Origin: Ulota crispa
Lineage: Eukaryota > Streptophyta > Bryopsida > Orthotrichales > Orthotrichaceae
Reading direction: 5' to 3'
Assembly: GCA_963920765.1 (NCBI GenBank)
Contig: OY987243.1
Span: 26,283,419 to 26,347,418 of the forward strand
DNA: 64,000 nucleotides
Numbering within the stretch: the stretch's first letter is position 1; the number at the start of each line of letters is the position of its first letter. The notes under the pieces are model-generated. The model saw nothing but the letters and a program-made list of their open reading frames with translations. It did not search any database and was not told where the DNA came from. Below are positions 1,772 through 60,039 of this stretch, piece after piece. Both the position numbers and the translations under genes were made by a program.

Positions 1772-2610
1772 TTAATCCCTAAATGTTTGAGGCACCAAAT
1801 TTTGGTGTCCACAATACTTTGAGGTCCATCAAATCTAACTAAGTTGCTATTCTTAATTGCTTTTATTTTTGCAATGTTCTTCTTGAAGTCTAGTTTTAGC
1901 ATCAAAAATGTGATTTTGAAAATGATTAAATACGATTTTTCTATTCAAGATTTTGTACAAGGATCTTGACATTAGGGGGTTTCAAATATGCCATTCACTA
2001 CTAATTTTGTTCACGTGAATAAGATTCATGAAAAACCTAGCCAAGTCACTCCGTGTAGGAGTCGTGACAACCTCCTGAAGTCATGACGGCATATTCATTG
2101 CAATGAACAAAAACTAGTTCACAACCATTTGTTCATTGTTTTTTCAAGATATCTGAAACCCCCTATTCTATAGTGTTGAGAGCTCTTGGAAATGAGCCTC
2201 GGATACACTAGATCTTGGAGAAAAATTTACATTAGAAAATCATTTACAACAAAATTAGAAGAGATCTTAAAAAGCCGTAAAGTAACTAGAGTTATGTACG
2301 TATGTTGTGTTCTTTAACCTTATATTTTTTGGTGACCGACTTTTTAGATCCAACAGGTGAAAAGAGGATTGAAAGACTACAAGTCATATTTGCAATTTTA
2401 ACACCCTCATGATCAAACATTATAACCTTTCAATCCATAAGTGATATTGTTGTGTATTCTTTTCCTATGTAATCTTTAACATATCTAGTTTGAATTTGTA
2501 TGGTTACAATTTTTAAAAACTTGAGACAAATTATTAAAACATTGGTTTTTTGTTCAAGCTAGAGAAAATTCCTAGAATCTCAAAAAAGGCCTCAAGCATT
2601 TAGGGGTTAA
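1772..2610. mobile_element. TTAA-flanked inverted-repeat element, copy 1 (long type)
   Basis: TTAA at 1772-1775 and 2607-2610 bounds the element. The ends are TCCCTAAATGTTTGAGG on the left and, inverted, CCTCAAGCATTTAGGGG on the right, about 17 bp of terminal inverted repeat. The inside shares blocks with the elements at 38837-39490 and 43009-43925, for example a stretch containing catcaaaaatgtgattttgaaaatg. No coding capacity is visible. TTAA target sites with CCC...GGG ends are the piggyBac signature. Confidence 0.65.
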
Positions 2611-3421
2611 AGAGCCCTCAAAATTCTTGTTCTCCACCCTTGTACTTCAAACGTGTTCCAAGAATAGTCATTTGACAATTCACTGATGGGAGTATAGAAC
2701 AAAGTCCATTAAACTTAGGATGAATAATGTTGTGAAAAGCTATTGCTTGACACACAAGGGTGGAGTGCTACGCTATAGCAAACATTTAAGCCCTCTAAAA
2801 GCCCCCTAATGCTTGACAAACCAAGCTATTATTTGGCTAGCATAAGTACAAGAAAAATCACTCATTTATATGGTTATCTTATATGAAGGACCTTAGCCAC
2901 ATGCACAATTTAAAACAGTACAATAGACATTGCTCTCATAAAATATGTAAGTGTATTCACTAGTCATTATCCAAGTACTTCACTCATTTATTCAAATAGA
3001 GTAAAATAGAATTTATGGTCTTCCTGTACATTTGTACCCATAGTTTTTGTCCAATTGGGATAACATACTAATATAATTTTCATGATTGCATTGAATTCAA
3101 AATGTGAGCGAAAATAGAGGATTAGTGATTTGTTTGTTGTAGTAAGCTTAAATACGTATCTTAAGACCCTTTGAGAGACTTTGGAGAGGGCTCTTGGACG
3201 GCTCAAGATTTTCCTAATGGGGGTACTTTGAGGGGCTTTGACCACTCATTATCCATGTTTCAAGAGTGTTAGATCCTTGTAAGGCAATGTTGGAGATACT
3301 TTGAGCAGAAGAGAACAATAAAAATTAGGCTAATAATGAAGATAATTTTTTATTTTTAATATACATATATATACACATGTGTACATATATATGCATATGC
3401 ACATATATACATATGTACATA
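2611..3421. other. Intergenic, no gene seen; alternating-purine/pyrimidine run at its end
   Basis: AT-rich DNA with no supported ORF. The last 65 bases (about 3360-3425) are an imperfect run of acatatat/atacatgt units that is close to self-complementary and could extrude a cruciform. Confidence 0.5.
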
Positions 3422-3751
3422 TATAGACTAGGGAAAATTTCATGGATACCCCTAAAGTTTGCAATATTTTCATAGATATCCTGGCCTTTTCAAAAATATC
3501 ACAAATACCCTTGGACCAAAAAATTTAGATGTTTATTTTGTTATGCATATCATTTCCTTCTCCCTTTGTGCGCTCACTTCTTCTTTCTTGTTATGCATGC
3601 GCACAAAGATAGAAGGGAAATGGCATGCACAACAAAATAAACGTCTAATTTTTTTGGTCCAAGAGTATTTATGATAATTCAGAAAAAGCAGGGGTATCTA
3701 TGAAAATATTGCAAACTTCAAGGGTATCCACTAAATTTTCCCTATAGACCA
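3422..3751. mobile_element. Mutator-type MITE, family A copy 1
   Basis: A 312-bp element (3431-3742) with long inverted ends: GGGAAAATTTCATGGATACC on the left and its near-complement at the right. Flanking 9-bp sequences are TATAGACTA (3422-3430) and TATAGACCA (3743-3751), one mismatch. A 9-bp duplication plus long terminal inverted repeats is typical of Mutator-like elements. No transposase is encoded. Confidence 0.75.
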
Positions 3752-3763
3752 CGTAAGATACAT

Positions 3764-4644
3764 GTACAATGGGGAGAGAAAAAGATTGGGAACACTATGT
3801 TATGCCATTTAAAGAACTTTTCCTAACATATAGCGTATAATTGACATTTTTTGTCTTGCATCATTGGTGTTTAATTCTTATGCAACCTCCAGCAAGCATA
3901 CCAAATTTCAGCTCCTAAAAATCAAAACCCTATGTTTGGTGAATTATTTTACATGAAATTCATGGTTTTACATGGTAATTAATTAAAAAATATTGGTGAT
4001 GAATTTTTGATATTGGATTGCATGGGTACGCAAGAAACATCTATACACACATCTTTCCTTCCAACAAACATCTCCAAATAGCTTCAAAAATTCTTCCATA
4101 GAGATTTTAATGTTGGGATGATTATGACCAAATTTTGTAAAATAGATGTATATTTTTTATGATAAGATTTTGGCAAGTTAAGCATATCTTAGTGATCAAG
4201 ATTACAAACTTAATCATAAAGGACAAATCAAATTGAAATTTTTTTTAATAAAAAATATATATCTATTTTACAAAATTTGGTCATAATCATCCCAACATCA
4301 AAATCTCTATGGAAGAATTTTTGAAGCTTTTTGGAGATGTTTGTTGGAAAGAAAGATGTGTGTATAGATGTTTCTTGCATACCCATGCAATCCAATATCA
4401 AAAATTCATCACCAATATTTTTTAATTAATTACCATGTAAAACCATGAATTTCATGTAAAATAATTCACTAAACATAGGGTTTTGATTTTTAGGAGTTAA
4501 AATTTGGTATGCTTAATGGAGGTTGCATAAGAATTAAACACCAATGATGCAAGACAAAAAATGTTAATTATACGCTATATGTTAGGAAAAGTTTTTTAAA
4601 TGGCATAACATGGTGTTCCCAATCTTTTTCTCCCCCCATTGTAC
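3764..4644. mobile_element. Foldback element, family B copy 1
   Basis: Two arms of about 400 bp are inverted copies of one another (roughly 3764-4180 and 4260-4644) around a short AT-rich spacer. The outermost pairs are gtacaatgggg and ccccattgtac. The arms contain blocks around caccaatatttttt and aaaccatgaatt that recur at 6779-7668, 12230-12600 and 53690-54480, so it is a family. It has no coding capacity. No clean target duplication was found. Confidence 0.75.
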
Positions 4645-5231
4645 TATACATAAGAAAAGACAAATGAGGGGACACATTTTAGGAAATAAATTTCTTACCC
4701 TTTAACATTTAAAGGACCATAGTCTATTTGGGGGACAAATGGATTTTGGGCATGTACCTAGGGCTAAACTACTTTGCATGATTTTTTGAAACTTTTATTG
4801 AAAATGGGGAATTCAAAAATGTGCACGGGCATCTAGTTTTTATTCCAATTGATGCTAGGGAGCAAAAGTTATGCCCAAATAAGCACAATTTTGGGAACTT
4901 TGGGCAGCAAAATTTTTTTTTATAAAAACTTGGATTTTTTTTTTTTTTTTTTTTTCTCATTGATTATATCTTTGTCTACATCTGAAGCTTTGATTCATTC
5001 CATTTGGACTAGTTATGAGAAAATTATGAACAATCTTGTTTTTTGGGCAATTCAAGCATCTCCATGAAAAAATAACTTATAAACTTCATTTTTGAATGCA
5101 AGTTTAACATTTTTTCAAAAAAAATTGTTGGAGAGGGTGAAGTTTGCTTTTTAGAACAATCTCACTGCTGGAATTATTTTGTTTCAATTCCATTGCAAGG
5201 TTATTAGCTATTTAAGTTTTTGTTCAATCTC
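4645..5231. other. Intergenic, no gene seen
   Basis: AT-rich sequence with a poly(T) run near 4935-4955. The short ORFs here are low-complexity and unsupported. Confidence 0.5.
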
Positions 5232-5442
5232 ATACACTAGTAGAAACCCGTGTTTTTCTTGACGCATTTTTTTGGACGTCCAGTTATGTGTGTGTTAATA
5301 ATGACATCAAACATAACACAAAGATGTTAGTTTTGACATCAAAAATAACATTAAGATGTTAACTTTAACATCAATTATAACATTAAAAAAAGTAGACGTC
5401 CAAAAAAATGCATTAAGAAAACACGGGTTTCTACTAGTGATA
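5232..5442. mobile_element. CACTA-type MITE with perfect target duplication
   Basis: A 205-bp element at 5235-5439. The left end is CACTAGTAGAAACCCGTG and the right end is its exact complement, continuing inwards through tttt and later ggacgtc pairs. The flanks carry a 3-bp direct repeat, ATA (5232-5234 and 5440-5442). CACTA terminus and 3-bp duplication together define the CACTA (CMC/EnSpm) superfamily. The inside is short, AT-rich and non-coding, so it is non-autonomous. Confidence 0.88.
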
Positions 5443-6778
5443 CCTTCTTCTGCCTAATGTTTTTTTTAAAGAATGAAAATTAATTATTTTTTGTTATTGT
5501 TAAATTTTTCCCCAAGATTACCAACTCAACTTCCCACCATGCAAAAATAGAATTCCAAACTTTGTGGTGCAAAAAATTAGTTAAAAAAGTTCAAAGTCAG
5601 ATAATCTAATCAGGCAAGGTGCAAAAAAGTTATTTTTACTTTTAAAATGCAAGTATCTTCCAATATGTGCAGTCAAAGTTCTTGAGTTTTGTATGACACA
5701 TTCTTATAGTAATCTAGTACAAGATCCTACGGTTAGATATGCAAAAAGACATTTGCAAACTTTTTTACTCTTTACCATAGAGGTGGTAGTTTTGAGTGTC
5801 TTTTGACAAAATAAAGGCCATGGTCCTTTAGGGATTAATGAACGACCAAGCCATTGTGAGTTTGTGGATGATTCCAGTTTTTTTGTGTTGGGAAGGCTTC
5901 ATGCCAACAAGTGCGCCCATCAAAATTTGGGGTCTTTTTTAACCAAAACAATTTCATCCGTGGGACTTCAAGAAAGGCCTCACATACTTATTGAAATAGC
6001 AATATAATGATAGTTTTTTCTCTTGTCAAAAGATAGCACATTTAACTAATTATAAACTTCTATGCAATTCTAAGCTATGCCAATTTCTAAACATTGAGAT
6101 TTTCCAATGTTTTACATGGATACTTGTTATGCATATGTTTTTCAATTTTGTTTTTCCAAAGTTGTTATTCCTAAACTTTGAAAACTTTAGAATTAGTTAA
6201 ATGTGATATAAAATTGGTGAGGCCATAAAGTTGAGACCGCAATCATAAGCCTAGGAATTTTTTAAAGAGAAAGAACGGATAAAGAGACTAAGCAAAGTAT
6301 CTGAGATTTCAATTACATCCATAATTAAGTGGTTATTTTTTTCTTACAAGATACAAAATAGATTTTCTTAGGTAAAGAATGGAAACTCGTTTATACAATA
6401 CAATTTTATAGAATTGTTTTTGCCACCATAATGACTTGAAGAATACCACAATATTCATGAATTCACAAAATGTTAACAGGACAAGAACATTAAGTTAATA
6501 AGTCATTTTTTTATTATTGTCTCGCCAATATCGTCCAAGACTCTAACAATTTAATGTCTTTGCTTTAGTTCTTCTTGTCAATGAGGCTTTTGTTAGATGA
6601 ATTAAACATGCTCTACATCCTTTCCATCCAATTTATTTTATAAAGTGGAACCTTAAAAAGCACAAGAACTTCTTTCACATATGAATCAACAAAAAGAATT
6701 CATATAATAAGAATTTACAACTATAATGCTTTTGCTTGCAAGGAATGAATTTAATGTCAAATACATATGTCAATAATT
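5443..6778. other. Intergenic, no gene seen
   Basis: AT-rich unique sequence. No ORF, RNA gene or clear repeat end was recognised. Confidence 0.5.
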
Positions 6779-7668
6779 GTACTACAGTGATCTACAACTT
6801 AGTTTTGTTCACCTTGAATTCCCCCTTCAAAAGTCTTGGCATTTCATAAAATAAAATTAGCATTTTAGAATCTTCTACCATTATATTTTAATTCTTACTC
6901 AATCCCAATCAAGCCTACCAAATTTTGAGTTTCAAAAACCAAAATCCTATTTTTGGTGAATCAATTTACATAATAATCATGGATTTACATGATAAATGAG
7001 CATAAAAATTTGGTATTGATTTTTGAGATTTGATTGCATGGATGCATAGAAAACATCCATACGTGCATCTTTCTTTTTGATAAGCATCTCCAAAAAAAAT
7101 TACAATTCCTTCTATGTAGATTTGAATGATGGGGTGATTACCACCAAATCTTGTAAATTAGATATTTCTTCATAGTAATCATTTTTTTTTGTTTAACTTA
7201 CACAATATAGTTAGGTTTGAACCTTTGAGCATAATGATATGGTTATTTTGCCAAAAACTAGTTAAAAAATACACAAATATCTAATTTGCAAGATTTGGTG
7301 GTAATCACCCCATCATTCAAATCTACATAGAAGGAATTGTAATTTTTTTTGGAGATGCTTATCAAAAAGAAAGATGCACGTATGGATGTTTTCTATGCAT
7401 CCATGCAATCAAATCTCAAAAATCAATACCAAATTTTTATGCTCATTTATCATGTAAATCCATGATTATTATGTAAATTGATTCACCAAAAATAGGATTT
7501 TGGTTTTTGAAACTCAAAATTTGGTAGGCTTGATTGGGATTGAGTAAGAATTAAAATATAATGGTAGAAGATTCTAAAATGCTAATTTTATTTTATGAAA
7601 TGCCAAGACTTTTGAAGGGGAAAAGTTGGAAAACATGGTGAACAAAACTACATTGTAGACCACTGTAC
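6779..7668. mobile_element. Foldback element, family B copy 2
   Basis: Near-perfect inverted arms (about 6779-7170 and 7270-7668) with outer ends containing tctacaactta-gttttgttcacc and its complement. The arms are highly similar, so the RNA would form a hairpin with a stem of nearly 400 bp. The internal blocks match copy 1. It encodes no protein. Confidence 0.82.
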
Positions 7669-8141
7669 ATTTGAGACCAACAAAGAAGTTGGAGAATAGA
7701 TCAATGTAGTTCTAGCAGTGCTTTTTTGGGCAATTTAAGGCCCAATTGCCTCAAAAAAATAGGCTAGCTTCAAGCCTATAGGAAATAAGGGGGAAATTTT
7801 TTTTCAAAAAATGCTAGATTGCAATAATGAAAATTGCATTGCAGCCTAGGCTTTCATAAAATCCTTATCAAATTGAAAATTGATGCCAACATTTTAAATT
7901 ATATGAGCATTTTCATTTTTTTGAGGTGTTGCCTAATCCAATTCAATACAATACTTAAGTAATGGCAATGGTTATTTGGATGTTTTCAAAAAATGACCAA
8001 TGAATATTTTTTACCTACAAAAAAATCCCATGATGCTCCAAAAATCCATGCATTGGGGCCAGCTTCAACTCCAACCAAAATAAGGACGGAGCTAGCAAGT
8101 TACAAACCATTTTCAAAAAATGCCACCCAAGCATTGGTGAG

Positions 8142-8186
<45 letters not shown>

Positions 8187-8283
8187 CAATTCTAGTGAGC
8201 TACTTGAGATCCCAAATTAAAATTTCTTACTGGTAACAAATGACAATTATACGTTAGTGCATATACTACACCCTACGATTATT
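8142..8283. repeat. A42 run followed by a truncated element fragment
   Basis: Positions 8142-8183 are 42 consecutive A. They are followed directly by about 100 bp of the right half of the short TTAA family (gagctacttgagatcccaaatt, split here as seen at 26207-26447 and 59835-60039). The element's left half is missing. Confidence 0.7.
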
Positions 8284-8294
8284 TAAGGATTAAC

Positions 8295-8526
8295 TTAACC
8301 CCTAAAGGGCCCCTGGGCTCTGGAGCTACTGTACCAAATATAATTGTAATTAATATTTAGAAGTTTGAGTTAGCTGAAAATTAAGTGTTATAACCATACA
8401 TACTAAAAATTTGTATGATGATGGGTGCATAAATTTTGTTAAAAAACCCTCAGAGCAACTCGAATACATCTGTACATACGGTCATAAATACGGCCACTAA
8501 GGGCTTTCGTGACATTCAGGGGTTAA
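8295..8526. mobile_element. TTAA-flanked inverted-repeat element, copy 2
   Basis: TTAA at 8295-8298 and 8523-8526. The left end is CCCCTAAAGGGCCCCTGGGC and the right end finishes ctaagggc...cattcagggg. It is related at its ends to the element at 23909-24321. Non-coding. Confidence 0.6.
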
Positions 8527-14402: not shown

Positions 14403-15466
14403 GTTAACACTATGTCCCACATCCTATTAAAATTTCAAAACTTGATTGGTTGAGAGTCAAAATTGGGTTTTAGCAACTCATATTGTGTCTTAATCTTTAA
14501 ATGACCATAGGGCATAGTATATAAGTTGTTGTGTAACTGGCATTTGCTACTAATAAGTAATTTTAATTTGGGATCTCAAGTAGCTCACTTGAACCACTTT
14601 GACCTATTCTCCAACTTTTTTGTTTGACCTTAAGCGTAGTAAAGATGGGAATCTATTCCAAATACAAGAAAAACGCATTGTATTGTACTAGCCACAACAG
14701 CACGTTTAGACGTTCAAAGGTTAAGTCCTACGTGTGAGTTTACTGCACTTTGCCAACATGGCAACACTTAATGGAAGTTTTGGCACTAAGAAGGTAGGAT
14801 TGAGCTTAAGGTTTGGGTCAACTATTTTGCTCAACTCAACTTTCAATCCAAATCCCACTAACATTTTAGCCTTAATACTCATGACTTTTCTTAGTACTAC
14901 TTTTTGCCCTCAATAACCCAACAAAGCTACGATCATGCAGTGATGGTTAACTTGGGAATAGAATGTGGAACGTAGTGTGTACCAACCCCTTAGAAGCAAT
15001 TAACATTACGTCTTAAAAGTATGTTCACGCTAATCATTAGGAGGGATATTACCAATATGAATACAATCTAAAAGTGTGTTCAAATGCATCTAATTTTTCT
15101 TTGCTATTACCACTTTTGACACCAAGTGTGAACACACCCTATGTCTCAAGTCCATAAGTCTGCGCTTAATGCCAATTCTAAATTTTATTGGACTATAAAA
15201 AGGGCATGGTTGAACAAACACTTGATAAAAATGTCTCAAGGTCATAAGCAAAAACATTATTGGGACTTGGCTTCCAAGTGCAATTGCACCCAACTTTTGT
15301 CCAAATTCTCACTTTGTTCATACCAAATATTTTCAAAAGTGCAGGCATCTCTAAACGGGTTGAGATTTGGGACATAGGGTGAAGGTATAAATCTCAAATT
15401 TTCAACTTTCCACCAATCCAATTTTGAGATTTTAGCGGGTTTTGAGCTGTGGGACATAGTGTAAAC
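14403..15466. mobile_element. Composite inverted-repeat element with insertions
   Basis: Outer ends GTTAACACTATGTCCCAC (14403-14420) and GTGGGACATAGTGTAAAC (15449-15466) are inverted copies. Inside lie a TTAA element (14490-14724) and a second inverted pair with similar termini, CACCCTATGTCTCAA at 15135 and its complement ending at 15381. I read this as one element that received at least one insertion; two abutting relatives are also possible. Confidence 0.5.
14490..14724. mobile_element. TTAA-flanked short element, copy 3
   Basis: TTAA at 14490-14493 and 14721-14724. The body matches the short family (gggatctcaagtagctcac near 14571; ctattctccaactt near 14606). The ends have drifted (tctttaaatg on the left, gttcaaagg on the right). 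Confidence 0.6.
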
Positions 15467-16512: not shown

Positions 16513-16865
16513 TTAACCCCTAAACATTGGCCTGGACAAAAAACGTCCTTTGCCTCCCAAAAAAGCCACTGTAGCCCAAAAAATTTGATTTTGATCTTAT
16601 TTCTTTTCATAAGTGATCATAAATGCGTAGTGCACCATGGAAGGCAAAAATAAAATTCATCAAATACACTCATAATTTTAGGTACCCCAAATTCAAAATC
16701 ACTCATTAGGTCTCAAGCTGCCCTTATTGCAATTTTCATGGAATCAACATGTATTGTTGACTTTTGCAATTTTCTAAGGCAATATTATTGGTGACCAGCT
16801 GCAAAATACTATAGAAGCCAAAGTTAGGGCAAGCCATGGTGACCCACCCAACGCTTAAGGGTTAA
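16513..16865. mobile_element. TTAA-flanked element, copy 4
   Basis: TTAA at 16513-16516 and 16862-16865. Left end CCCCTAAACATTGG; right end CCAACGCTTAAGGG, an imperfect inverted match. Non-coding interior. Confidence 0.5.
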
Positions 16866-23078: not shown

Positions 23079-23406
23079 TAAGGTAGGAGGCTCATAAACC
23101 GACCATGTAAGGGTTGAAACTGAATTTTGGGAGGTAGAACTTCATGAAATATTTTTCAGTAAATTTTCCTTCAAGTACAAGAAGAATTGGCATCTAATCT
23201 AAGTTGTTTCATATTTTTCAGAGCTTTGTGGAATTAGTTATAAAATTTTGAAGCTGAAGTGGCATAGGGCTCTAAAATCGCCCACCTCCTCAAATGTAAA
23301 TCACTTATATATTTGGAAACCTATGAAAAAAATCATGTACCAAGGGAGTACATTTCAAAGCATGGGCGGTTTTAGAGCCTGGACAGTTTATGAGCCTCCT
23401 ACCTTA
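23079..23406. mobile_element. MITE family E copy 1 (TA-flanked)
   Basis: 328 bp with ends TAAGGTAGGAGGCTCATAAA and the inverted ttatgagcctcctacctta. The first eleven bases are the same as in family C, so the two may be mobilised by the same transposase. Further copies lie at 37413, 44479 and 53497. Confidence 0.75.
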
Positions 23407-23456
23407 CCACCCCCTTTTTGACTATTCCAATGTAAGCTTACATGGAGTATTGTATA

Positions 23457-23908: not shown

Positions 23909-24321
23909 TTAATCCCTGAAGGGCCCTTGGGCCTCCAAGATACAAGTACGTATCTATAACGGAGCGGGATATGCATGGTTTAGGCAACTTTAACAGGCGC
24001 TAGGTCACCCAAAGATGAGTCATACAATTCCGCAATACGGCCACGTGTCTGGTACGGCTTGCGTTGCTGTGGAAGCAGGGTGGCCTCATCAACAAAGAAA
24101 TCATGTACCGTACCTACACCATATGCAAGTGCGGATACAAACCTCAACCTATGGAATTTGACAAGGTTTCTTCTCAAAAAAAATGCATGATCAGGTCCGG
24201 CTTGGAATTTCCTACAAGTTGTCAGTGTACACAAAAGTCTGAAAATGCTGCGACATCCCCTGCATACCAGCAAAATAGCACATTACGGCCGCAAAGGGCG
24301 TTTGGGCCCTTCAGGGGTTAA
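23909..24321. mobile_element. TTAA-flanked inverted-repeat element, copy 5
   Basis: TTAA at 23909-23912 and 24318-24321. The ends TCCCTGAAGGGCCCTTGGGC and GGGCCCTTCAGGGG are inverted matches of about 14-20 bp. The inside is clearly GC-richer than its surroundings and contains no intact ORF of recognisable type. Confidence 0.65.
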
Positions 24322-26206: not shown

Positions 26207-26447
26207 TTAACCCCTAAAGGACAAGGCAGCCCTTTGCGACCAGTATAATATGGGGTATTTTTTTGTATTTGGAGTGCATCCACACCTTTATTACATTTGA
26301 GATCAACATAGAAGTTAGGATATAGATCAATGTTGTTCTAGTGAGGTAATCAAAATCCCAAATTAGAACTTGTTATTGGTAATAAATGCTAGTTATACAA
26401 CAGCATACACAATATGTAAAATAGTAGCCTTGTCCTTTAAGGGTTAA
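26207..26447. mobile_element. TTAA-flanked short element, copy 6
   Basis: TTAA at 26207-26210 and 26444-26447. Left end CCCCTAAAGGACAAGG; right end CCTTGTCCTTTAAGGG, a 15-16 bp inverted repeat. The 233-bp body is the best-preserved short-type copy and matches 14490, 28590, 45793 and 59835. Confidence 0.7.
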
Positions 26448-28095: not shown

Positions 28096-28589
28096 GTAAT
28101 GGGTGTTATTAATATTAATGTCATTTTTCCTTCAGTTTTTTTGATAAATTTAAAATTTATTTCATAGGTATGCATTGATAAGAAATCTAACCGTCTATTT
28201 TACCTTTTGTATTTTACATTAGCGTTTTGCCAAGTTTATAAATGAATTTACATGATCTAAATCTATTTAGTACATGTATGAAGGGCGTAGCTTAGTGTAT
28301 CATTGTACAACTATGCATTTTGACCATTTGGGCACCTTCGGTGTAATAAACAATATTGCAGCTTTTGATTTGTAAACATGAATATCATTATCACAAGCAC
28401 AACAATGTTTCAATTGTCCCCTAGTATAGATTTTGAACTACTTTGTAAACTTTTGTAATTTTGAAAAAGTGGTATCCAAATAATTGGAGCTTGTTTCTTT
28501 TTCCAAAGAGCGAAAAATAAAAAAATGAAAAATATCAATATAGAAGTATAAAAACGTATGTGTTGAGTTTATCTTTCAGGTTTTAGTAT

Positions 28590-28830
28590 TTAACCCTTGA
28601 ACAACCAAGCAACCATATGACAGAGTATGTATGCTGCTGTATAAGTAGAATTTGCTACCAACAAAGAGTTTTAATTTGGAATATTGACTACCTCACTAGA
28701 ACAACATTGATTTATGTTCTATCTTCTTTGTTGATTTCAAATGTAATAAAGGTGTGGATGCCCTCCAAATACAAGAAAAATACTTCATATTGTGCTAGTT
28801 TCAAAGGGCTGCTCAATTGTTTAAGGTTAA
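28590..28830. mobile_element. TTAA-flanked short element, copy 7
   Basis: TTAA at 28590-28593 and 28827-28830. Left end CCCTTGAACAACC; right end ggctgctcaattgtttaagg, degenerate. The body matches the short family in forward orientation. Confidence 0.55.
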
Positions 28831-33009: not shown

Positions 33010-33255
33010 ATAACAAGGAAATGCTATTTTGTGAGTAGGGATCCATGAGCTATGAGCATAGATTTTTTGTCAAAATAATAAATTCCACCTATAACCATGT
33101 ACATAAAACACTATAATTATGCATTTAAAACTTTCATCTCTTGAAAAAGTTGCTGATTTTTTAATTTTTACATTGATTTTGAGCTCAAATTGATTCCTAC
33201 TCACACAAATCTAAGCTCATTGCTCATGGCTCACAGTTTTACGCTCACCAAACAG
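33010..33255. mobile_element. Family G element, copy 1
   Basis: Ends ggaaatgctattttgtgag and, inverted, ctcaccaaacagcatc. The body includes gtgagtagggatccatgagc and gctcatggctcac. Other copies are at 43649 and 57188. Confidence 0.55.
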
Positions 33256-33660
33256 CATCATCCCTCAATAACCAAGCCAGTACTATAGGGGCAAAGTGAC
33301 GCACAGAACTGATACCAGCGCGGCCCCTCCGCTACCCCGTGCACCAATCGGACTGGTTATCAATCTAGAAATTGGGCAATACATCGAATCTCTCACACAA
33401 GATATTTTTTAAATTTTTACATTGATATTGAGCTCAAAGTTGATTCCCACTCACATAAATCTTAGCTCAGTATGCTCATGGCTCACAGTTTTAAGCTCAC
33501 CAAATAGCATCATCCCTCAATAACCAAGCCAGTGCTATAGGGGCAAAGCAACGCGCAGGATTGATACCAGTCTGACCCCTCCACCACCCCGTGCACCGAT
33601 CGAACTGATTATCAATCTACAAATCTGCCGATACATCGAACCTCCCACACAGGGTATCTT
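33156..33660. repeat. Tandem duplication (about 247 bp x 2) just upstream of CUL3
   Basis: The block 33156-33403 (the right part of family G plus a GC-rich piece containing ccctcaataaccaagccagt) is repeated at 33404-33660 with roughly 85-90% visual identity. The second copy ends about 415 bp before the CUL3 start codon, so it probably lies in or beside the promoter. Confidence 0.8.
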
Positions 33661-38836: not shown

Positions 38837-39490
38837 TTAACCCCTCACCGCCCAAGGCAGATTTTGAGCATCTTAGAATCTGCTCTAAAGTGAACAAAAT
38901 GTCAATATTTTGATAAATTTTGTCAATTATTTTTGAAATGTAACGGTACAAATTCAAGCTAGACATATTAAAGATTACATGGGAAAAGAAAACACAACAA
39001 CATCACTTATAGATTAAAAGATGAAAAGATTTGATCATGAGGGTGTTAAAATTGTGAAATTGATTTGAAGTCTTTCAATTCTCTTTTCACATCTCAAATC
39101 TAAAATTGAGGGTACCTAAAAAATACGAGTATGTAAAGTATAATATGCATAACCTCAATCAATTTATAGCTTCTCAAAATCTATCTTACAAATTTTTAAT
39201 TCAATTTCTAATGTAGTATTTTCTCCAAGTTCTAGTGTACTTGAGGCTCATGTCCAAGAGCTCTCAACACTAGAAAGTGAAGATTTCCAATGGACACCCT
39301 TTCACAAAATCTTGAGTAAACAAATCCTAATTAGTCACCTTCAAAATCAGATTTTTGACACTAAAACAAGACCTCAACAAGAAATTTTAAAAAACAAAAA
39401 TAATTGTAATTAATCATGAAGGAAATTTATAAATCCCAAATTACAAACAAGTGGGGACAATTTTGGTCCTCTTGAGCGGTGAGGGATTAA
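38837..39490. mobile_element. TTAA-flanked element, copy 8 (long type)
   Basis: TTAA at 38837-38840 and 39487-39490. Ends CCCCTCACCGCCCAAGG and CTTGAGCGGTGAGGGA are inverted. The interior is shared, inverted, with 1772-2610. It is followed directly by a truncated short-type copy (39491-39627). Confidence 0.65.
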
Positions 39491-39980
39491 TCTTAGAGAG
39501 AAGTTGAAGAATAGATCAAATTTTTTTAGTGAGCTACTTGAGGTCCCAAACTAAAACTTTTTATTAGTAGCAAATACCAATTATAAGGCAACGTATATAC
39601 TTTGCCCTATGGTCATTTAAGGGTTCATATTTGTTTTCATCTTCCAAGGGTTTTTTGTACTCATGGTTGCTTCGGCTTCACATGTGGTTTTCAGCTATAC
39701 ATCTGTTCTATACATGGAAGATTTCTAATGTGGAAATTAATATTAAAGAATTTTAAAAGATTCTTCTGTTTTATACTTTTAATTAATTGAGTATAAAAAA
39801 TCTTCAGAAATGTGAGATTGGTCAAAAATTAAAAATCCACTTACTTTTGGTGTTACAAATGGTATGGGGTTACAAGTGAACTTAAGAACGCCTTGAATTA
39901 GATTCATTTTATAGTGATGCTTGGATATGGTCAATGGCTTGGGCATGAAAAAAACGTTGACCATATCTAAGAGTTGACAA

Positions 39981-42935: not shown

Positions 42936-43008
42936 GGACCTTTAACTCTTAACCTCTAAAATGTCAAAGGCACCAAATTTGGATGTTCAAGAAACTTTGA
43001 AACATTGC

Positions 43009-43925
43009 TTAACCCCTAAATGCCCAAGCAACCATATTTGGGTCTCTATAAAACTTTGAAGATGAATAAAACATTCTCAAATAATTATTTTTAGTGTTTT
43101 TTTTACAATATTAGTTTTTTTTGAAGTCTACTTTCAACATCAAAAATCTGATTTTGAAAATGAAAGTTGATGATTTTTCTACTCAAGATTTTGTACAAGG
43201 GTGTCCATTGCAATCTTGAGTTTTTTAGTGTTGGAAGATCTTGAAAGTGACCCTCAAATACACTAGAGCTTGGAGAAAAATCCACATTAGAAATCCATTT
43301 AAAAAAATGTAGGGGTAGGTTTTTTAAACCATAAATTGATTAGAGTTAGACATGTAATGACCTTAAACCTCATATTTTTTTGGTGACCAACTTTTTAGAT
43401 TTGACATGTGAAATGAGGATTAGAAGACTTTAAGTCACTTTTGCAATTTTAACACCCTCATGTTCAAACATCATAATCTTTCAAAATATAAGTGATATTG
43501 TTGTGTTTTCTTTTTCCATGTAATCTCTAACATTTCTAGTTTAAATTTGTATGGTTATAATTGAAAAAAACTTGATGGAATTTATGAAAAGGTTGATTGA
43601 TTGTTCAGTTTCATGGAAAGTCCAAGCAGCTCAGATATGGCTTGGGCACGGGAATGCTAAATTGTGAGTAGGGATTCATGAGCGGTGAGCCGTGAGCGTA
43701 ATTTTTTTGGCAAAATATTAAATTTCAACTATAAATGCGTATATAGGACCTTATAATTGCACATTATAAACATTCATCTCTTGAAAAATTGTTGTTTTTT
43801 AAGTTTTTCCATTAGTTTTGAGATCAAAATTGATTCCCGTTCACAAAATCTTGGCTCACCACTCATAGGCTCACCGTTCTACGCTCATGAAATAGCTTAC
43901 CTCGGCTTGGGCATTTAGGGGTTAA
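43009..43925. mobile_element. TTAA-flanked element, copy 9 (long type, with nested insertion)
   Basis: TTAA at 43009-43012 and 43922-43925. Ends CCCCTAAATGCCCAAGC and GCTTGGGCATTTAGGGG are exact inverted copies (17 bp). The left end is partly duplicated about 55 bp upstream (cttaacctctaaaatg, about 42953). A family G element is nested inside the right end. Confidence 0.75.
43639..43913. mobile_element. Family G element copy 2, nested, with target duplication
   Basis: The element (43649-43903, 255 bp) is flanked by the 10-bp direct repeat GGCTTGGGCA (43639-43648 and 43904-43913). That sequence is part of the host element's own terminal repeat, so the direction of nesting is unambiguous: G inserted into the TTAA element. 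A 9-10 bp duplication suggests Mutator-type integration. Confidence 0.75.
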
Positions 43926-44478
43926 GGCAAAATTTTGACCATTTTAGTATCTTTTGTTTGGAGAAGCTATAATCTGAAGTTAGCCTCAACGTTCAATTTA
44001 AATGTCTTGCACACTACATTCCAATTGATTAAGGTGGAAGCTAAACTACAAGCATGTTTGTTGGGGATTGAAAAGTGTGATGAGTAGTGTCACTGCAGCG
44101 TCTATGACAAGCTGCTATAGAATCTATGACAAGTTGCCACATTGGAAAATTGGGTAGCAAGTTGAGAATGAAGTCAACATCTCTCTTGGACACTCCCCAA
44201 CAAGAGCCCCTCTATTGAAAATTCATCATCTAATAAAATCCAAATGTATTTTTGGGCTAATTTCACTTCAAGTTTTTTTGGTATACAAATTAGAATTCAT
44301 TCACCATTGTATTCTCTTTCACTTATACTAATTTTTGGTCAATATTTGGAGCTAAAAAATTTCTTTGTATTAGGTGGTGGCTCTTAGACAACTGGAAGCT
44401 CATTTGTGAAATTGTGGTCATGAATTTGGAAGGGGGATCATCAATTTTGAAGTAACAACAACAAACACTAAATTATCA

Positions 44479-44807
44479 TTAAGGTAGGAAGCTATAATTC
44501 TACTCAAGCTCTAAAATCAACCACCTTCTCAAATGTATTCCATTTGTACATGCTATTTTTCATAGTCTTCAACAATGTACTATAAAAACAGAGTTCATTT
44601 GAGAAGGTGGACGGTTTTAGAACCCTATGCCACTTCAACTTCAAGCTTCCATAACTAATTCCACAAAGCTCCAAAAATATGAAACAACTTGGGGTGGATG
44701 CCATTTCCTTGTGTTTCAAGGAAATACCTTGAAAAACACTTCAAGAAGTTTCACCTTCCCAAAATTCAGTTTCAGCTCTTAGATGGTCAATTTATGAGCC
44801 TCTTACA
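44479..44807. mobile_element. MITE family E copy 3
   Basis: Inverted relative to copy 1: TAAGGTAGGAAGC at the left and tttatgagcctctta at the right. The body includes ctctaaaatcaaccacctt and gtggaattagtta in complement. Confidence 0.65.
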
Positions 44808-45792
44808 TTGGTGGATGTTTCCCAATTTGTACACAAAAGTAACCATTTTTGCATTAGAAGTTTGAAGCAGTTCCAAAGAAACCAAAAAATTCCTTACTTC
44901 TTCAAATTTAATCACAAATGATTTAAAACCCGCATGACCTTTTTGGAGTTTAAATTGACAACACCATCTAAAAGCCTTGAAATTCAAGATCCTACAATTA
45001 CAATTATGTTTTAAAGTTTGAATCTTACAACAACAATTCAAAATTCAAAGTTGCCTTCCAAAATTAAGAAAAGCACCTCTAAACTTTTAGGGATTAAAGG
45101 TTTGAAAGAGTCTTTGCAACCAATATAGTAGGGCACCTTAAAAGTGAAAATCTATTAATAGATGCCACTTTTACCACTTTTCAGACTAGTTGTTTCTCAC
45201 TTTTAAGGGCCACTTGGTAGGAATCAATGGGAGGGAAGTTTGTGAAACCATGGAAGGATATGATCAATATGTCATTTGTGACTTGTGGCTGAGGTTCTTT
45301 GCTGCATTACAAACCATTCTCCATTTTATTATTGTCTAGTTTTTTGAGATCATTTTCACAAACCATTCTCTAGTCTATCATTCTCTAGTTTTTTGTAGAT
45401 TGTTTTAAGTCAAAAATGACATCTGCCAAACAATCTTGTGCTAGATTTCTACCTAGCCATGCTTTCCTTGTTGGTCAGCAACACGAGTTGTTGCATGATT
45501 GGGTAGGAGGTGTTGCCACATTGTTTCCAAATACTACATCTATGGAGTCTAACTTCTCCATCCTTGGATGCCAGAAAGACTAATACCACAAATCCATTAC
45601 ATATAACCCTTGGAAGGTGTTGTGGAGTCTAACTTCTCCATCCTCAAAGTGTTAGTCTTTTCTCCCATCCGAGTCCATCACTAATTTGTCTTTAGAAGGT
45701 GTTTGTTTTTACTCAAATAGGCTTATAAACACACAAAAAATGGATAAAATGATTAAAAGTGGATACAATCACTTTTAACTCTCGCCATGTAC

Positions 45793-46697: not shown

Positions 46698-49600
46698 TTA
46701 CTCCCCTCCTTGATATCCTCCTGGTTGAGGAGCAGGTCTGGCTGATAACAATGGTTGCAGTGCTTTGACGACGATGCTCATGTTGGGACGAAAATCTGCC
46801 TCGTATTGGACACACAGGGCTGCAACAGCTGCCATCTGAAGAAACCAATTGTATAATAAAGACGGTTATGACCATCAACATAGAAAATTAGGGAAATTAC
46901 AAATAGTGGCATGAAAATGAAAAAACTTTACAGATAAGGGCACATATAAGGGCACATAGAAAATTAGGGAAATTAAAAATAGTGGCATGAACATGAAAAA
47001 TATTACAAATAGGGGCACATAGAAGATTAGGGAAATTACAAATAGGGGCATGAACATGAAAAATGTTACAGATAAGGGGCACAATTTCAAAACAATTACA
47101 AATAGGGGCGCAATTTCAAAATAATTTGTAAATTTTTGTAAATTTTTTTTGGTTTGGACATTGGTTGACTTGGACATATCACATGAAACGTTAGCTAACT
47201 TCCAAAAAACTTAAAAGGCCTCTCCAAATCAAGCCTAAATAAAGAAATTTTAGTAAAGGGGATGGCAATTTTTTGGAAAGACCTCTAAGTTTTTTGGAAG
47301 TTAGGGAACATTTAATGTGATATGTCTAAATCAACCAATGTCCAAACCAAAAAAAACTATAAAAATTTACAAATTATTTCAGAATTGCACCCCTATTTGT
47401 AATTATTTTGAAACTGTGCCCCTATCTGTAATATTTTTTCATTTTCATGCCCCTATTTGTAATTTCCCCTAGAAAATTAATTAAGGTCCTGCCAGAGCTA
47501 AGAGTAGTTCATCTGACTGCAAAGTTTATACAATTTTGTAACCATTATAGGTCATCTTTGCTGTAGCGAGAAAGCTGAAAAAACGAAATACTTGTAAGTA
47601 AAAGTCGATGACATGAACGATACCTTCGCTACAGCCTTGGCGGGATACTCAGATCTCAATTTTGGATCAACACACTGTTTCACCTTGTCCTCACTCAGTC
47701 TTGGTGTTGCCTACAGGAGGTGTAAGCAAATAAAATCAGAGCAAATAAACCATACTTGTGATTAGAACAGCACTAACAGTCACCAGGTTCAGATAATGAA
47801 GATGAACATGGTCAACTTGCACAAATTCTTCACTGAGTATGTACCAAGAGGAACTAACAAGCTTGATATAGAAGTAAGAACAAAGACATATAAGAGGTAA
47901 GAGCTACGCTCAGTAAGTAGACTTTTGCTCCCAGGATCAAATAGAAGATGCATATATTAAAGTGCGTTAAATCACAAAAAACCTACCCAGGTCACGAGAC
48001 TCTGTTGCCCACGGGGCATTGTGGGATCGACAGGTTTTCTTCCAGTAAGAAGTTCCAAAAGAACCACTCCAAAACTGTAAACATCACTTTTTTGAGTCAA
48101 CTGTCCAGTCATCGCATACCTGCAAGAAAACATCGAATCAGAACATCAACAAACTAAAAAAATGCCGCAATAACTTTGACCAATGACCAAATGCACTCAT
48201 CGTCTACATAGAACAGACAATGGTTGACCTCCCTTCGTTAGCAATCTCCTCACGAGAGGACTACGACCAATGTCAATTTCCTGTTCGCCTTATTTCATGA
48301 AATTCATGTAGATGACTTCTAGGTACAGCATTATTTAAACGAGCTACCACAGAATCCTAAAATTCATCTCATTCGAATCCACAATTATTAGCTCTGATAA
48401 AACATCGTTCTCCTGTTTCGGAAAAAACGAAACCGTCACTTGTGATATCATGCTCCTACAAAGCAGATCACGTCGAAAGACCCTAATGCGCCCACGTTGC
48501 ACTCGCAGAAGTGTCATGCTGCCAGAGCTTATTACAAACATGACTTCTGATTATTAGTTCATAGTACATCTCTCACCAACTTGTCCACAAGTGTCGATAC
48601 TAGACTTTGTTGCATGAAAACGGCCAGATACGGTTAAAAGGAGCGCAGATGTAATCCTCAAACAAAACCTAATGTAAAGTAGAAAATCACCCGATCAAAA
48701 TCTGAACATTTTGTTGCATAAGAGCACCCCAACAATATTCAATAAATGCTACCCAGATAAGTTGCACACTTACTCTGGTGCGTGATAGCCAAAAGTTCCA
48801 AGAACGCGAGTAGAGTGTAAACGAGCAGCCATATCAGGTGCCTGGTTCGACAGGTTGAAGTCGGCAATCTTTGCAACATATGAATCAAAAAGCAGAACGT
48901 TGCTAGACTTGATATCCCGATGAATAATGGACGGCTGAGCTTTCTCATGTAAATACTCCAAACCCCTTGCAGCCCCAACTGCTATCTTCACACGCTGCAT
49001 CCAATCCAAGACTGGCCCGGGCTGAGCACCCTTCACACCCTTCCTTCCTGCAAGTCAAGAGTTCCTCGTTTAGGTTCGCAAAAACATTCTACGCACTGTT
49101 ATTCACACTAACAGGATAAATCAAGGAACTGAGACATCATCGTCAATCACGTGCCCTGAAGTGTACACTTGCTAAAGAAAACCGATGACATGAATGTGGA
49201 GGGACTTGAGGATTCTACCGGGCCTCACCAACAGGTACTAAGACAAGCAACGAGCATATCTATATACCATTTACTTTTATATTGAGTAATTAGTATACCC
49301 GGCCAACAGAATTGAACAAGAGTATTCATGAATGCACAGAATGCTCATAGCAATTAACAGAGTCTGCGGGCCTCAGGATGAGTATACCGTGAAGAATGTC
49401 GTGCAAGGAGCCCATGGTGGCATATTCATATGCCAGAACCCGCAGTTGCCCCTCTAAGCAATAACCGATCAGCTCAACCACATTCTCATGCTTCAATCTT
49501 GACACAAGAGAGACCTGCAAGTTCCAAACCCAACTCAGACTTGAACTTCGCAACTTGCAAATACAAATAAAATTATGTGTTCACAAGTAAAACTTGCACA

Positions 49601-52955: not shown

Positions 52956-53498
52956 TTAACCCCTAAACACCCAAGGGGTAAGGGCAAAACGTAGATGCGT
53001 TATAAGATTATACTTTTGTAGTTTTGATGAAGTTTGTTTCAAAAGAGAAAACAAGAATGAAGATGTTTAGTAATTATCCGTAGTGTTAAATATTCAAAAA
53101 GGTTTTGGACTCTTGTTCAATGAATTTAGAAGCATTATCATTTAATATTCAACAATATTATAAATTTTTTTCATAGAATTTTAAATTTGGAATGATTGGT
53201 TAAAAATAAACGTTCTATTCTAAAACTAAAAAATGTAATATTTTGAAGGAGAGAACATCATTAGTTTCCCAAAATAGTAAATTTCTAACATAGCAAATAT
53301 TGAAATGTTTAGTCTTTGGGATATATCATTAATGGGATTTAACTTGAATTGACATGATTCAAATTGGATTAGAAAGTAGACTTGCTTTCCTTAATAAAAT
53401 TTAATTTAATTTTTTCAAAAAATGTTTTTTTTCATCTTGGGCAACTTGCAAACAAGGGCAGTGATCAAAAAATGGTCAACTGGATGTTTTGGGGTTAA
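52956..53498. mobile_element. TTAA-flanked element, copy 10
   Basis: TTAA at 52956-52959 and 53495-53498. Left end CCCCTAAACACCCAAGG; right end ggatgttttgggg, a partial inverted match. Very AT-rich inside. Confidence 0.55.
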
Positions 53499-54515: not shown

Positions 54516-54966
54516 AATATAAATGGGGAAATTACAAATAGGGGCATGAAAATGTAAAATATTACAGATAGGGGCACAGTTTCAAAATAATTACAAATAG
54601 GGGCACAATTTTTAAAAAATTGTAATTTTTAGTAATTTTTTTTGGTTTGGATAATGATTGATTAAGAAACATCAAACATCAAATAAAATGTAAGCTAATT
54701 TCCAAAAAAATTAAAGGTCTTTCCAAATCAAGCCTAAATTTTAATAAAGGGGATGGCAATTTTTGGAGAATTTTAATTTTTTTGGAAATTAGCTAACATT
54801 TAATGTGATGTATCTCAATCAACCAATGTCCAAACCAAAAAAAATTACAAAAAATTACAATATTTTTTTGAAATCATGTCCCTATTTGTAAATATTTTGA
54901 AACTGCGCCCCTATCTGTAATATTTTGCGTTTTCATGCCCCTATTTGTAATTTCCCCAATATAAAT
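54516..54966. mobile_element. Mutator-type MITE, family D copy 3
   Basis: 433-bp element at 54525-54957 with ends GGGGAAATTACAAATAGGGG and the exact inverted form, flanked by a perfect 9-bp direct repeat AATATAAAT (54516-54524 and 54958-54966). Confidence 0.88.
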
Positions 54967-56228: not shown

Positions 56229-56542
56229 TAAGGTACGAACACCCATAATCATTAGTGTCCCCATAAAAGTCACCTCTAAAATCTTGAAAAATCTGTGGAA
56301 ATTAGTAGATGTAATTACAAGGATGTACAACATGTGAACATGAAACCTTAGTGTTGGTTATGGGTGCAATGGCAATTTGTTCTTTAAAAATTCACAACTT
56401 ATTCTCACGATATCCAAATAATACATTTGAAAGTGCAAATTCGTTTTTTTCTATTCCTAGTATCCTATAATTTGCTAGGTGTTTATTAATAGTCATCATG
56501 TTCAAAACCCTTAGTTTGACATTTATGGGTGCTCCTACCTTA
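56229..56542. mobile_element. MITE family C copy 3
   Basis: Ends TAAGGTACGAACACCCATAA and tgggtgctcctacctta. The body matches copies 1 and 2 in reverse (agtgtccccataa near the left; gtttgacatttatgggtg at the right). Confidence 0.7.
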
Positions 56543-56875
56543 GCGGCATTTAAGTCATAAACATCCTCCAATTGTCTAATGGTTGAGTCATGAGGTAATT
56601 TGCAAGGGTAAAGCAACCCAAATGTTAAGGCAACCTAACTATAACCTAAATGCACTATTCAGCGTACACAATCAAAGTGCATTAAATATATAAGAAAAAA
56701 CCAAGTTATAAAATTACTCTTATTTTGTATAAAAATGTATATGAAAAGCAAGAAATATCAAATTTATAAAATTGTGAAAATTAAGAATGTTCTTAACACC
56801 AATTGTACTTAAAAGTTCGTGCTAAAATCTAATTTACCCACAATGACAAAACATAATAATAATAATCCTATATCA

Positions 56876-57096
56876 TCACCCTCCTCTAGCTTTTCTTTGT
56901 TGAAAGCTACATGCAACTAAAGGAATGAAAATGCCTGAAAATACACCACCCCACACTAGAGCTCCAAACTTCATTTTGCGATTAGTCATAGCCGGTAAAT
57001 TGTACATGGTTTCCGCATGAATATAGTCATTGCTATATCTTTGACTCTTTGATGCTTGCACTTCATTTTGACTACATACATGAATCTTTCGAATTT
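56876..57096 (-). CDS. Possible last exon of a small single-pass membrane protein
   Basis: Open from an acceptor-like ttgttgcag (57097-57105) to TGA at 56876, about 72 codons. The C-terminal part reads AETMYNLPAMTNRKMKFG, then a hydrophobic segment of about 18 residues (ALVWGGVFSGIFIPLVA), then a basic end QQRKARGG. Length and layout resemble small respiratory-complex subunits of plants such as cytochrome c oxidase small subunits, but I cannot name the family with certainty. No upstream exon was identified; a family G element starts at 57188. It could be a pseudogene or retained fragment. Confidence 0.35.
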
Positions 57097-57187
57097 CTGC
57101 AACAAATTGTCATCATAGTCATTCATAATGTAATATTTAACTAAATCATGACTATTCACATAGTTTTGGACTTTGTTTGTTATATAG

Positions 57188-57440
57188 AGGAGAATGCTAT
57201 ACCATGAGCAGGGATCCATGAGTCATGAGATGTGAACTTGGATTTTTTTGGGTGAAAACATGAAATTTAATATATATAACCGTGTACAAAGGGCCTATGA
57301 TTGTGCATCTTAAACTTTGTCATTTGAAAAACATCTTGATGTTTTTTTTTGTTTTTTCATTAATTTTGAGATTGAAATTGGTTCCTACTCACAAAATCTT
57401 GACTCACCACTCATGGCTAACCTTTCTACACTCACAAAAA
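57188..57440. mobile_element. Family G element, copy 3
   Basis: gaatgctataccatgagcagg at the left; cactcatggctaacc and ctcacaaaaatagtgtt at the right. About 250 bp and diverged from copies 1 and 2. Confidence 0.55.
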
Positions 57441-59834
57441 TAGTGTTATTTGCTAAATAGTAGGAGATCTCTCATTTTTTTGCATAGATTTTCAGATATT
57501 TTGCATAGAATATATCAAAAACACTTGGAGATCTCTCAATGTTCTACATATAAATTATTGTTCCTAAACTTTGTATGGTCCATAATTAGTTAAATGTGTC
57601 ATTGCATCAACAATACATATATTTCATGGCAACAGAAAAAAAGAAGAAGGTTATTTTCATTATGAGTGATGTTCACAATTTGAGTTACTCCTATGTTCCA
57701 AAGAAAAAAAAATTGCAACTTCCTTAAACCTTACAACTCCAAGTCACAATTTCTTTTTTAGACAAAGGAGTATTAGCTTTGCATTAATAAATAAGGAAAA
57801 ACAGTCACAATAGTTATAAACAAGCAAGACTGTTTTTACTCCAATTGTTGCTTCAACTTGGATGTAGATCCGGATTCTTGTGTTTTTAATAACAACTGTG
57901 TTTTTGCATTTTTTCCAAGTCTTTGCTATGTTTTTCTTTTTATTACTAAAAATACTCAATGGCACTACTATTTTTTTTTGCACAATCGTTGTATTAATAA
58001 GGTATTTCAAACACTATGTCATCATTTCTTTTGTTGTTGCTTGTAAAATCAAAATTCTCTATTGTAGAAGAACTAAACTTTCATATACAAACAAATTTAT
58101 TGCTATAGCTCCGCTTGTAGATAGTTAATTCAAAATGAAACAATTTGAAATAGGATTTCACTTTTATACAACCAATAATACATGATAAACATTAAAAAAA
58201 AAATTATACGTGGTTATTTTTTAGTATCTAAAAAGAACAGAATCTGAGATAAATTAACTTACCACATTTAGGCTTTGTATAATCAATAAGTTTGGACATT
58301 GTATGTTGCCTTGCCAAGGGTCTAAAATATCGATCCATTGATATCCTTGGAATTTGCTCAGAATATGTTTGGTTTGATTTGTATATATATATTTTTAATA
58401 CCTTTTCTAAACACTCAAAATGATAACTCAAATACAAATAGTTTAGAGAGCCAAAGAATTTCGAGAAATATTGTATGTGTTTTTTTCTTCTATATTTCAA
58501 AATCAATGATTACGTGGACAAACCTAACCGTATTAAAAATCCCAATATATTTGTCTCTTCATGTGCTTGAAAAAAGATATTGATACTCTTGGTATATACT
58601 GAGTAATACGCTTGTGTATTATACATTATAATTTGATTATAAGATTGAAAATTTAACAACTTGAACAATTATTGATCCCGTAAAACTCATACAACTTTTA
58701 TAATGTGGTGCGCTCGTATGGAAGAATTTTCTTAGTTGAACCAAAACTAAATATTGACACAAAAAACATTCAATCAAAACTACTCACATTGGGCTTCTAT
58801 TGGAACATCATTTATCTTATTAACACATTATTGAAACACATCTCTTACAATAAATAAAGAAAAATATATAGTATTCTGTTTCTATTAAAGTATATCATTT
58901 TCTAATATTGTCCCTTTGATGTGTTTCTGCAAGTTTTCCTTTTACTCCTTTGGTAAATAAAAATGTAAAATTCCATCATTGTTATATTTTACATTTTTAC
59001 TATCAGTTTAAAAAAAAAATGATATTTGTATCAACAAAAATACATGTCTTAATTAACGGAGTTTGCAAGGCAGAAACGTGCTTCATTAAATCTAATGCGT
59101 CCTTTAAAACTTTTAGAGGAACAAGTTAATTTCATCATTCATGTTGTAGTTGGCATTGCGTCAAACATGTTGGATGCCTTTTGAAATATGATTACGTCAT
59201 AGCAAACATCCCAAAAATATGTTAATTTTTTTAGAATTGGTCGAAAATATGTTGACTTTGCCATGGTCAATTTTTTTGAAAGGATGCAGGCTAGATTTTA
59301 TATTTGAATTTGAACGGACAAAAAAATTATTATTTGGATGATTTTTTTGAGACTAGTATTGCTCATTTGTCCACATGACAATTTTTCTACGTTCCAATTT
59401 CATGTTTTTTGAGATATTTGACAAAAGCATGCTTGTGTTTTTTGAGATTTTTAACAGGTTTTTCTTGACCAATCATGATGTATTTTGTTGAACGTCTATA
59501 ATAGCATGCATGATGTCCAAAAAACACAACATCACGCTTTTAGAAACATAGAAGAAAAAGCAAGTTTCTCATAATGTTATCTCACACTCATCAATGTTCA
59601 TTAACATCTTTTTTATTTTTAGAACTTGAAAGCGTCTTATAGATTGAGAATAGATTGATGGTGAATTCATAATGACTTTTAAAGCCTTCTAATTGTGATT
59701 ATTTAATGTTGGTTTTGTTTACTTCCACTTTTATCATTTAATATACCTCAACTTTTATTATCCTTTCTTCTATTTTTATTGTAAGAAACATGTAGTTACA
59801 TTAAACTTTGGTGGAATTTTGTTCATGCGGTGTT
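57441..59834. other. Intergenic, no gene seen
   Basis: Very AT-rich. Short ORFs are compositionally biased and lack motifs. Confidence 0.5.
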
Positions 59835-60039
59835 TTAACCCTTAAAGGATAATAGGGAATAGTATATATGATCATTGGTATTTGCTACTAGTAAGAAGTT
59901 TTAATTTGGGATCTCAAGTAGCTCACTAGAACCGCTTTGATCTATTCTCCAACTTCTTTGTTGATCTCAAATACATTAAAGGTGTGAATCTATTCCAAAT
60001 ACTAAAAAAATACCTTGTATTCTATTGGTCGCAGGTTAA
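59835..60039. mobile_element. TTAA-flanked short element, copy 11
   Basis: TTAA at 59835-59838 and 60036-60039. Left end CCCTTAAAGG. The right end (ggtcgcagg) is shorter than in copy 6. Body typical of the short family. Confidence 0.6.

Follow-up and report, generated by a model that had tools for sequence, protein, structure and literature searches.

The piggyBac superfamily of DNA transposons, represented by the ~2.5 kb piggyBac of Trichoplusia ni and by piggyBat, targets and duplicates TTAA and encodes a DDE_Tnp_1_7 transposase with Asp motifs. Its CC...GG ends are described in an excerpt of PMC10045372, and passages of Chen et al. (2020; PMC7351741) report that the enzyme makes TTAA hairpins, uses TTAA for integration and acts without leaving a scar, and that a palindrome located at bp 17-33 of one end is where its cysteine-rich dimer binds. 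Short derivatives also exist: according to part of PMC2268245, primate MER85 is flanked by TTAA and carries the ends of the transposase-bearing piggyBac element PGBD3, with 613 examples in human. Here we analyzed a 64,000 nt stretch of the genome of Ulota crispa (the window; C2:26283419-26347418, from an assembly of 274.8 Mb in 157 contigs), in which a preliminary description had identified eleven TTAA-flanked, C-rich-ended elements as piggyBac-like miniature inverted-repeat transposable elements (MITEs). Copies elsewhere in the genome at the same borders, empty sites with a single TTAA, and PF13843 domains inside TTAACCC-ended elements all support that identity. The window elements are almost certainly non-autonomous piggyBac transposons, and full-length elements in the same genome encode a piggyBac-type transposase.

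Compared with the described superfamily, these elements share the TTAA target and its duplication, the transposase domain and its Asp motifs, but differ in their plant host, the 5-8 kb length of the transposase elements and the great diversity of the transposases. Compared with the MER85/PGBD3 pair, they differ in scale: exact end motifs number 30,972, there are several families, and 120 transposase matches are listed. The mechanism is already known; host and scale are unusual. The preliminary description regarded piggyBac as belonging mainly to animals and some fungi and protists, and as non-standard in plants. Most documentation is indeed from animals, but plants are already in print as hosts: portions of PMC3902484 list them among piggyBac hosts, and the review PMC10004981, in an excerpt, includes PiggyBac among the MITE superfamilies of angiosperms. 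PMC10794571 names PiggyBac as a class II superfamily in plants, one line in a repeat table from the fern Ceratopteris (PMC6890710, seen in excerpt) gives 1,230 PiggyBac copies, and the brown alga Ectocarpus is assigned 0.48% PiggyBac (PMC12477816). Extracts of a moss paper (PMC10619864) contain the word 'piggybacking' and no piggyBac element. In the literature searched, which excluded most subscription papers and Repbase, we found no land plant described as having transposase-bearing piggyBac elements together with matching MITEs.

A genome search with PF13843 (DDE_Tnp_1_7; 116 of 528 candidates scored) listed 120 matches, all above the curated cut-off (best E = 1.3e-73), with some loci giving two. 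No match was found in any of the 14 control genomes run alongside. None of the 120 listed matches falls in the window, in line with the preliminary description, which had seen no transposase there. Five transposase loci, picked on score or open-frame length, were read with ~3 kb on each side. The open reading frame (ORF) taken from each matched PF13843 and no other Pfam family at E ≤ 0.001. When the L029 ORF was compared with the PDB, the sole matches at E ≤ 10 were piggyBac of T. ni (6x67, 4.1e-20) and piggyBat (9c0f, 5.8e-17). Inspection by eye revealed motifs of the TxDE, DN[FY]F and [VI]DxxDQ types, presumably the DDD catalytic triad of piggyBac, with all three presumed catalytic Asp residues present in four of the five loci; in L030, L032 and L033 these motifs are split over two ORF pieces. 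A Cys/His-rich tail was noticed by eye in one ORF, that of L031. No DNA similarity was detected among the five loci at E ≤ 1e-5.

Both ends could be defined around the transposase in three of these five loci, revealing TTAACCC-ended elements of 5.0, 5.2 and ~8 kb; the genome search proposed in the preliminary description, for a DDE_Tnp_1_7 transposase with matching ends, was thus successful. The L033 element (L033:1295-6524; 5,230 bp) has the ends TTAACCCCTTGAGGGCTA / TAGTCCTCAAGGGGTTAA and an 18 bp inverted repeat (94%) starting TTAACCCC. A second copy on contig C1, 89-93% identical, begins and ends exactly at the same TTAAs. The L030 element spans L030:463-5489 (~5.03 kb) and has the right end TTAACCCTTCATTGCC; the borders of two further copies, on C10 (90%) and C8 (88%), agree with it to within 1 bp. 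Across the copies of these two elements TTAA was present at nine of the ten ends read (the C10 left end reads TTCA), and the flanks differ between copies. The L031 transposase lies in an element running from L040:2605 to L031:6137, ~8.0 kb including a nested MITE; at L041 there is a second transposase copy collinear with this L040-L031 element, with a decayed right end. No transposase of another superfamily was seen inside TTAACCC-ended elements, although no survey for Kolobok, Sola, Harbinger or others was made.

The end motif is abundant and specific. Exact matches to TTAACCCCTAAA numbered 30,972 genome-wide (15,477 + 15,495), compared with 77 (41 + 36) for the reversed pattern. In the window, with TTAA fixed, 18 ends matched TTAACCCCTAAA with at most one mismatch, while five Markov shuffles gave 0-1. 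When the tail CCCCTAAA was permuted into its 280 distinct orders (true order included), the mean was 0.56 and the next highest count was 6. The end logo reads TTAACCCCTAAAKGMCCAAGG, or CCCCTAAAKGMCCAAGG, with weak signal beyond TTAA, and the termini are CCCC...GGGG, in agreement with the CC...GG ends of piggyBac. TTAA precedes 7,291 of the 8,661 exact copies (84%) of the inner 16-mer CCCCTAAAKGMCCAAG. Inverted repeats of 18-23 bp, TTAA included, were found in the four elements examined. The termini had been given in the preliminary description as CCC(C)TAAA; a common C-rich motif was confirmed, but several ends differ, for example those at 14490 (TTAATCTTTAAA) and 38837 (TTAACCCCTCAC).

The comparison set for the window consisted of 200 kb from contig C1 together with eight 3 kb loci, and we also searched the genome directly with 23909-24321 (40 of 746 candidates scored), 52956-53498 (40 of 2,357), 43009-43925 (40 of 6,475) and L031 (40 of 3,074). 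The elements and fragments recognized in the window, none assigned to a strand, are as follows.

1772..2610, family A MITE, ~650 bp core plus 196 bp inserted; terminal inverted repeat of 23 bp (91%)
4702..5838, family D/J MITE, broken by a 204 bp insert at ~5236-5439
7666..8293, family B MITE remnant, broken by 474 bp; right end TTAATCCTTAAA at 8293
8295..8526, family C MITE, 232 bp; full-length alignment with the copy c1:126623-126854
14490..14724, family B MITE, 235 bp; among the unoccupied paralogs of nested insertion c1:72821-73755
16513..16865, family F MITE; family shared with L032:6558-6932 (36 genomic copies listed)
23909..24321, family H MITE, 413 bp; borders from genome copies
26207..26447, family B MITE, 241 bp
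28590..28830, family B MITE, 241 bp
38837..39490, family A MITE, 654 bp; TTAACCCCTCA-type ends, as in the L030 transposase element
39499..39625, family B MITE fragment
42949..45097, family E element with ends TTAACCTCTAAA / TTTAGGGATTAA; broken twice, by 43009-43925 and, at ~44480-44810, by a 330 bp insert
43009..43925, family A MITE within 42949-45097; 22 bp terminal inverted repeat, 100%; ~248 bp of tandem-repeat sequence inside
52956..53498, family I MITE, 543 bp; borders from genome copies
59835..60039, family B MITE; left border supported, right degenerate

TTAA is present at both borders at all eleven coordinate pairs of the preliminary description, and alignment of genome-wide copies at the flanks showed that homology ends at most of the borders it gave. 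For nine of the eleven elements other copies support both borders, with homology ending within 4 bp. In the genome searches, 31 of the 39 other listed matches to 23909-24321 and 32 of the 40 to 52956-53498 end within 3 bp of both borders. We had doubted 52956-53498, since homology to another repeat starts at its right TTAA, and the genome copies sharing this border removed that doubt. Two right borders are weaker. That of 43009-43925 was reached by none of the other copies compared (window and C1 sample; best 40 of 6,475 candidates), its support being a perfect 22 bp inverted repeat, and that of 59835-60039 is degenerate and received no support from copies in the window/C1 comparison. The original set of eleven also missed two elements, 4702-5838 and 42949-45097, the second of which contains 43009-43925.

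The eleven elements have the properties of MITEs, with lengths of 205-917 bp, inverted-repeat ends and high copy number (direct genome searches with three of the families gave 746 to 6,475 first-look candidates), and no ATG/GTG/TTG-started ORF of at least 120 aa overlaps any of them. They sort into six families: A (1772, 38837, 43009), B (14490, 26207, 28590, 59835), C (8295), F (16513), H (23909) and I (52956). The first description, of unrelated interiors sharing only their ends, is therefore too strong. Sequence similar to 18 TTAA-bounded elements makes up 10.7% of the window and 14.0% of C1:500001-700000, our second density sample, where the exact end motif is ~2-fold as dense as genome-wide. 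Mean Kimura two-parameter distances among sampled copies were 0.31 for family A (n = 8), 0.27 for B (n = 9), 0.23 for C (n = 3) and 0.63 for D (n = 8, with subfamilies mixed). Younger subfamilies also exist, as the 39 best other matches to the 43009 copy (among the best 40 of 6,475 candidates) are 91-93% identical over ~640 bp. MITEs are nested in a transposase element (L031:1042) and in each other (c1:91784-92746), an arrangement useful for relative dating. Long candidates in the 264 kb sample contained short ORFs only, none resembling a transposase by eye, with no Pfam scan made; several apparent 3-5 kb element pairings proved to be two separate MITEs each.

Target-site duplication was assessed at four nested insertions with unoccupied paralogs. 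The preliminary description had proposed that empty sites would hold a single TTAA, and this was observed for two of the four insertions, in 14 of their 23 paralogs together; the other two gave 0/19. At c1:72821-73755 (935 bp, inside a family B element) a single TTAA was present in 12 of 15 unoccupied copies, and at c1:15245-15484 (240 bp, family B) in two of eight paralogs, the closest (94% identity) among them. No duplication other than TTAA was seen among the sites examined.

Comparison of the transposase elements with the MITEs revealed shared termini. The 893 bp MITE c1:68092-68984 matches the L040-L031 element over 55 bp (84%) at the left end and 591 bp (74%) at the right end, with a middle of ~250 bp that was not found in that element. 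Family D has 57 and 53 bp in common with its two ends, and 31 and 22 bp of its right end recur at the two ends of window element 43009-43925. MER85 stands in the same relation to PGBD3 in primates. Among the best 40 of 3,074 candidates, 32 of the 38 matches to the 3' part of L031 stop no more than 3 bp from the terminal TTAA; the starts of most matches fall at one of two internal points. The L030 left end has 38 bp (84%) in common with a family A copy. These sequence similarities argue strongly for a link between transposase elements and MITEs for families D and G. When the 26 bp after TTAA were compared against a null of 973 other TTAA sites (empirical p), 20 of 26 window ends resembled transposase-element ends at p ≤ 0.01, including 11 of the 16 ends of families B, C, F, H and I.

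Several observations weigh against the piggyBac assignment. In the case of window families B, C, F, H and I, a link to the transposase elements would rest on the terminal 26 bp. Most of the listed transposase matches contain stops, L029 reads GGVN for GGVD, so that one presumed catalytic Asp is missing, and no bounded element could be defined around the transposase at L029 or L032 (two of the five loci). At c1:15245-15484, six of the eight paralogs have no TTAA at the site, three of them (at least 80% identical) reading ATAA and three more at 68-72% identity likewise without TTAA. TTAA was present in none of the 16 unoccupied paralogs of c1:63028-64512 and in none of the three of window element 43009-43925. 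Identity of the paralogs of these last two is 67-89%, with TCAA or TGAA at the site in several of them; mutational loss or gain of the site is a possible cause of such TTAA-less sequences.

The best-surviving alternative supposes that piggyBac transposases and TTAACCCC MITEs exist side by side, but that a different enzyme, whose ends had converged on these, mobilised some of window families B, C, F, H and I. These families resemble the transposase elements in their terminal bases only and no full-length partner was found for them, but the same TTAA and the same C-rich start recur across families, and one of these families, B, includes the insertion c1:15245-15484, which has empty sites with a single TTAA. 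We consider this explanation very improbable. Still less credible are MITEs of PIF/Harbinger (3 bp TWA duplication) or Tc1/mariner (TA duplication) type whose flanking bases spell TTAA by chance. TTAA is a palindrome, so identical filled and empty sequence would also arise from a TA duplication with ACCCC...GGGGT ends; in that case, however, the outermost base would be free, yet all four TTAA bases are kept at 84% of the 8,661 inner ends and conservation is near background further out. A TA or 3 bp duplication, either of which would free at least one base, is thus disfavoured, no 3 bp TWA pattern was found, and PF13843 in the full-length elements contradicts both superfamilies. Tourist (PIF/Harbinger) MITEs of plants are, like the elements here, small, non-coding and present in high copy number. 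They differ by a 3 bp TAA/TTA duplication, as given in an excerpt of the review PMC10004981. Sola3, like piggyBac, duplicates TTAA. Kolobok fits on the same count, but in an extract of PMC9587614 its ends are 5'-RR...YY-3' with another transposase, as against CCCC...GGGG here, and since the transposase inside these ends is PF13843 with piggyBac structures nearest, a Kolobok or Sola3 origin is extremely unlikely.

Under the piggyBac assignment, elements of ~5-8 kb encode the DDE_Tnp_1_7 transposase, which would recognise the TTAACCC...GGGTTAA segments of its own element and, in trans, those of short derivatives that kept the ends. It would then excise these elements and insert them at TTAA, with duplication of TTAA. 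By analogy with the enzyme treated in passages of PMC7351741, the steps may include hairpin intermediates, staggered TTAA joining and seamless excision, and a subterminal palindrome may be bound at one end. Particular transposase lineages would each have moved particular window families, and some copies may be active today.

Analysis of subterminal palindromes identified 8 of 44 ends at p < 0.05 compared with shuffles, one of them among the 24 window ends (1772 left). The remaining seven were three of the eight tested from family D, one from G, one from K, the left end of L040 and the right end of L033. Two of the six transposase-element ends, as well as families D, G and K, thus have a palindrome ~16-40 bp in, on one side only, in the region in which the cysteine-rich dimer of the T. 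ni enzyme binds one end. The pattern is suggestive but not general and, with one of 24 window ends positive, we do not claim it for the window families. More tentatively, and short of an even chance in our estimation, a land-plant lineage may long have hosted a highly diversified endogenous radiation of piggyBac, whose many mutually diverged transposases and tens of thousands of MITE ends would place it among the main DNA-transposon groups of the genome; the one-sided palindromes would then suggest that insect-type asymmetric synapsis also occurs in plants.

piggyBac is widely used in genome engineering and documented mostly from animals. With its numerous native piggyBac transposase genes and its very large complement of TTAA MITEs, this plant genome provides a natural system for studying regulation of the superfamily in plants, and a possible source of plant-derived piggyBac enzymes. 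Whether seamless excision and binding of a palindrome on one side are ancestral in piggyBac can be tested directly in such a system. The genome also serves as a caution that annotation of plant genomes may overlook TTAA MITEs or assign them to the wrong class.

Additional repeats were observed near these elements. A ~330 bp repeat starting GGTAGGAGGCTCAT is present at window 44480-44810 and 23080-23413 and at c1 28538-28826; it follows TTAA at 53498 and interrupts 42949-45097, and is possibly another TTAA-associated family with different ends. The 400 bp repeat L029:6370-6770, with 36 listed copies at 92-94% identity (best 40 of 4,226 candidates), is perhaps younger than most TTAA MITEs. A 252 bp tandem duplication at 33156-33651 has the same sequence as the ~248 bp of extra DNA (43648-43896) inside 43009-43925. 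Tandem arrays of ~30 bp units with ACAAATAGGGGC occur in both orientations, at window 46942-47464 and 54529-54950. Among coding sequences, malectin-like ORFs in the C1 sample fit a plant host, as do window ORFs that by eye resemble a type-B response regulator, for which Pfam reported no family. A cullin-3-type protein, which is not plant-specific, is encoded at window 34665-36695 by a single uninterrupted ORF of 676 aa.

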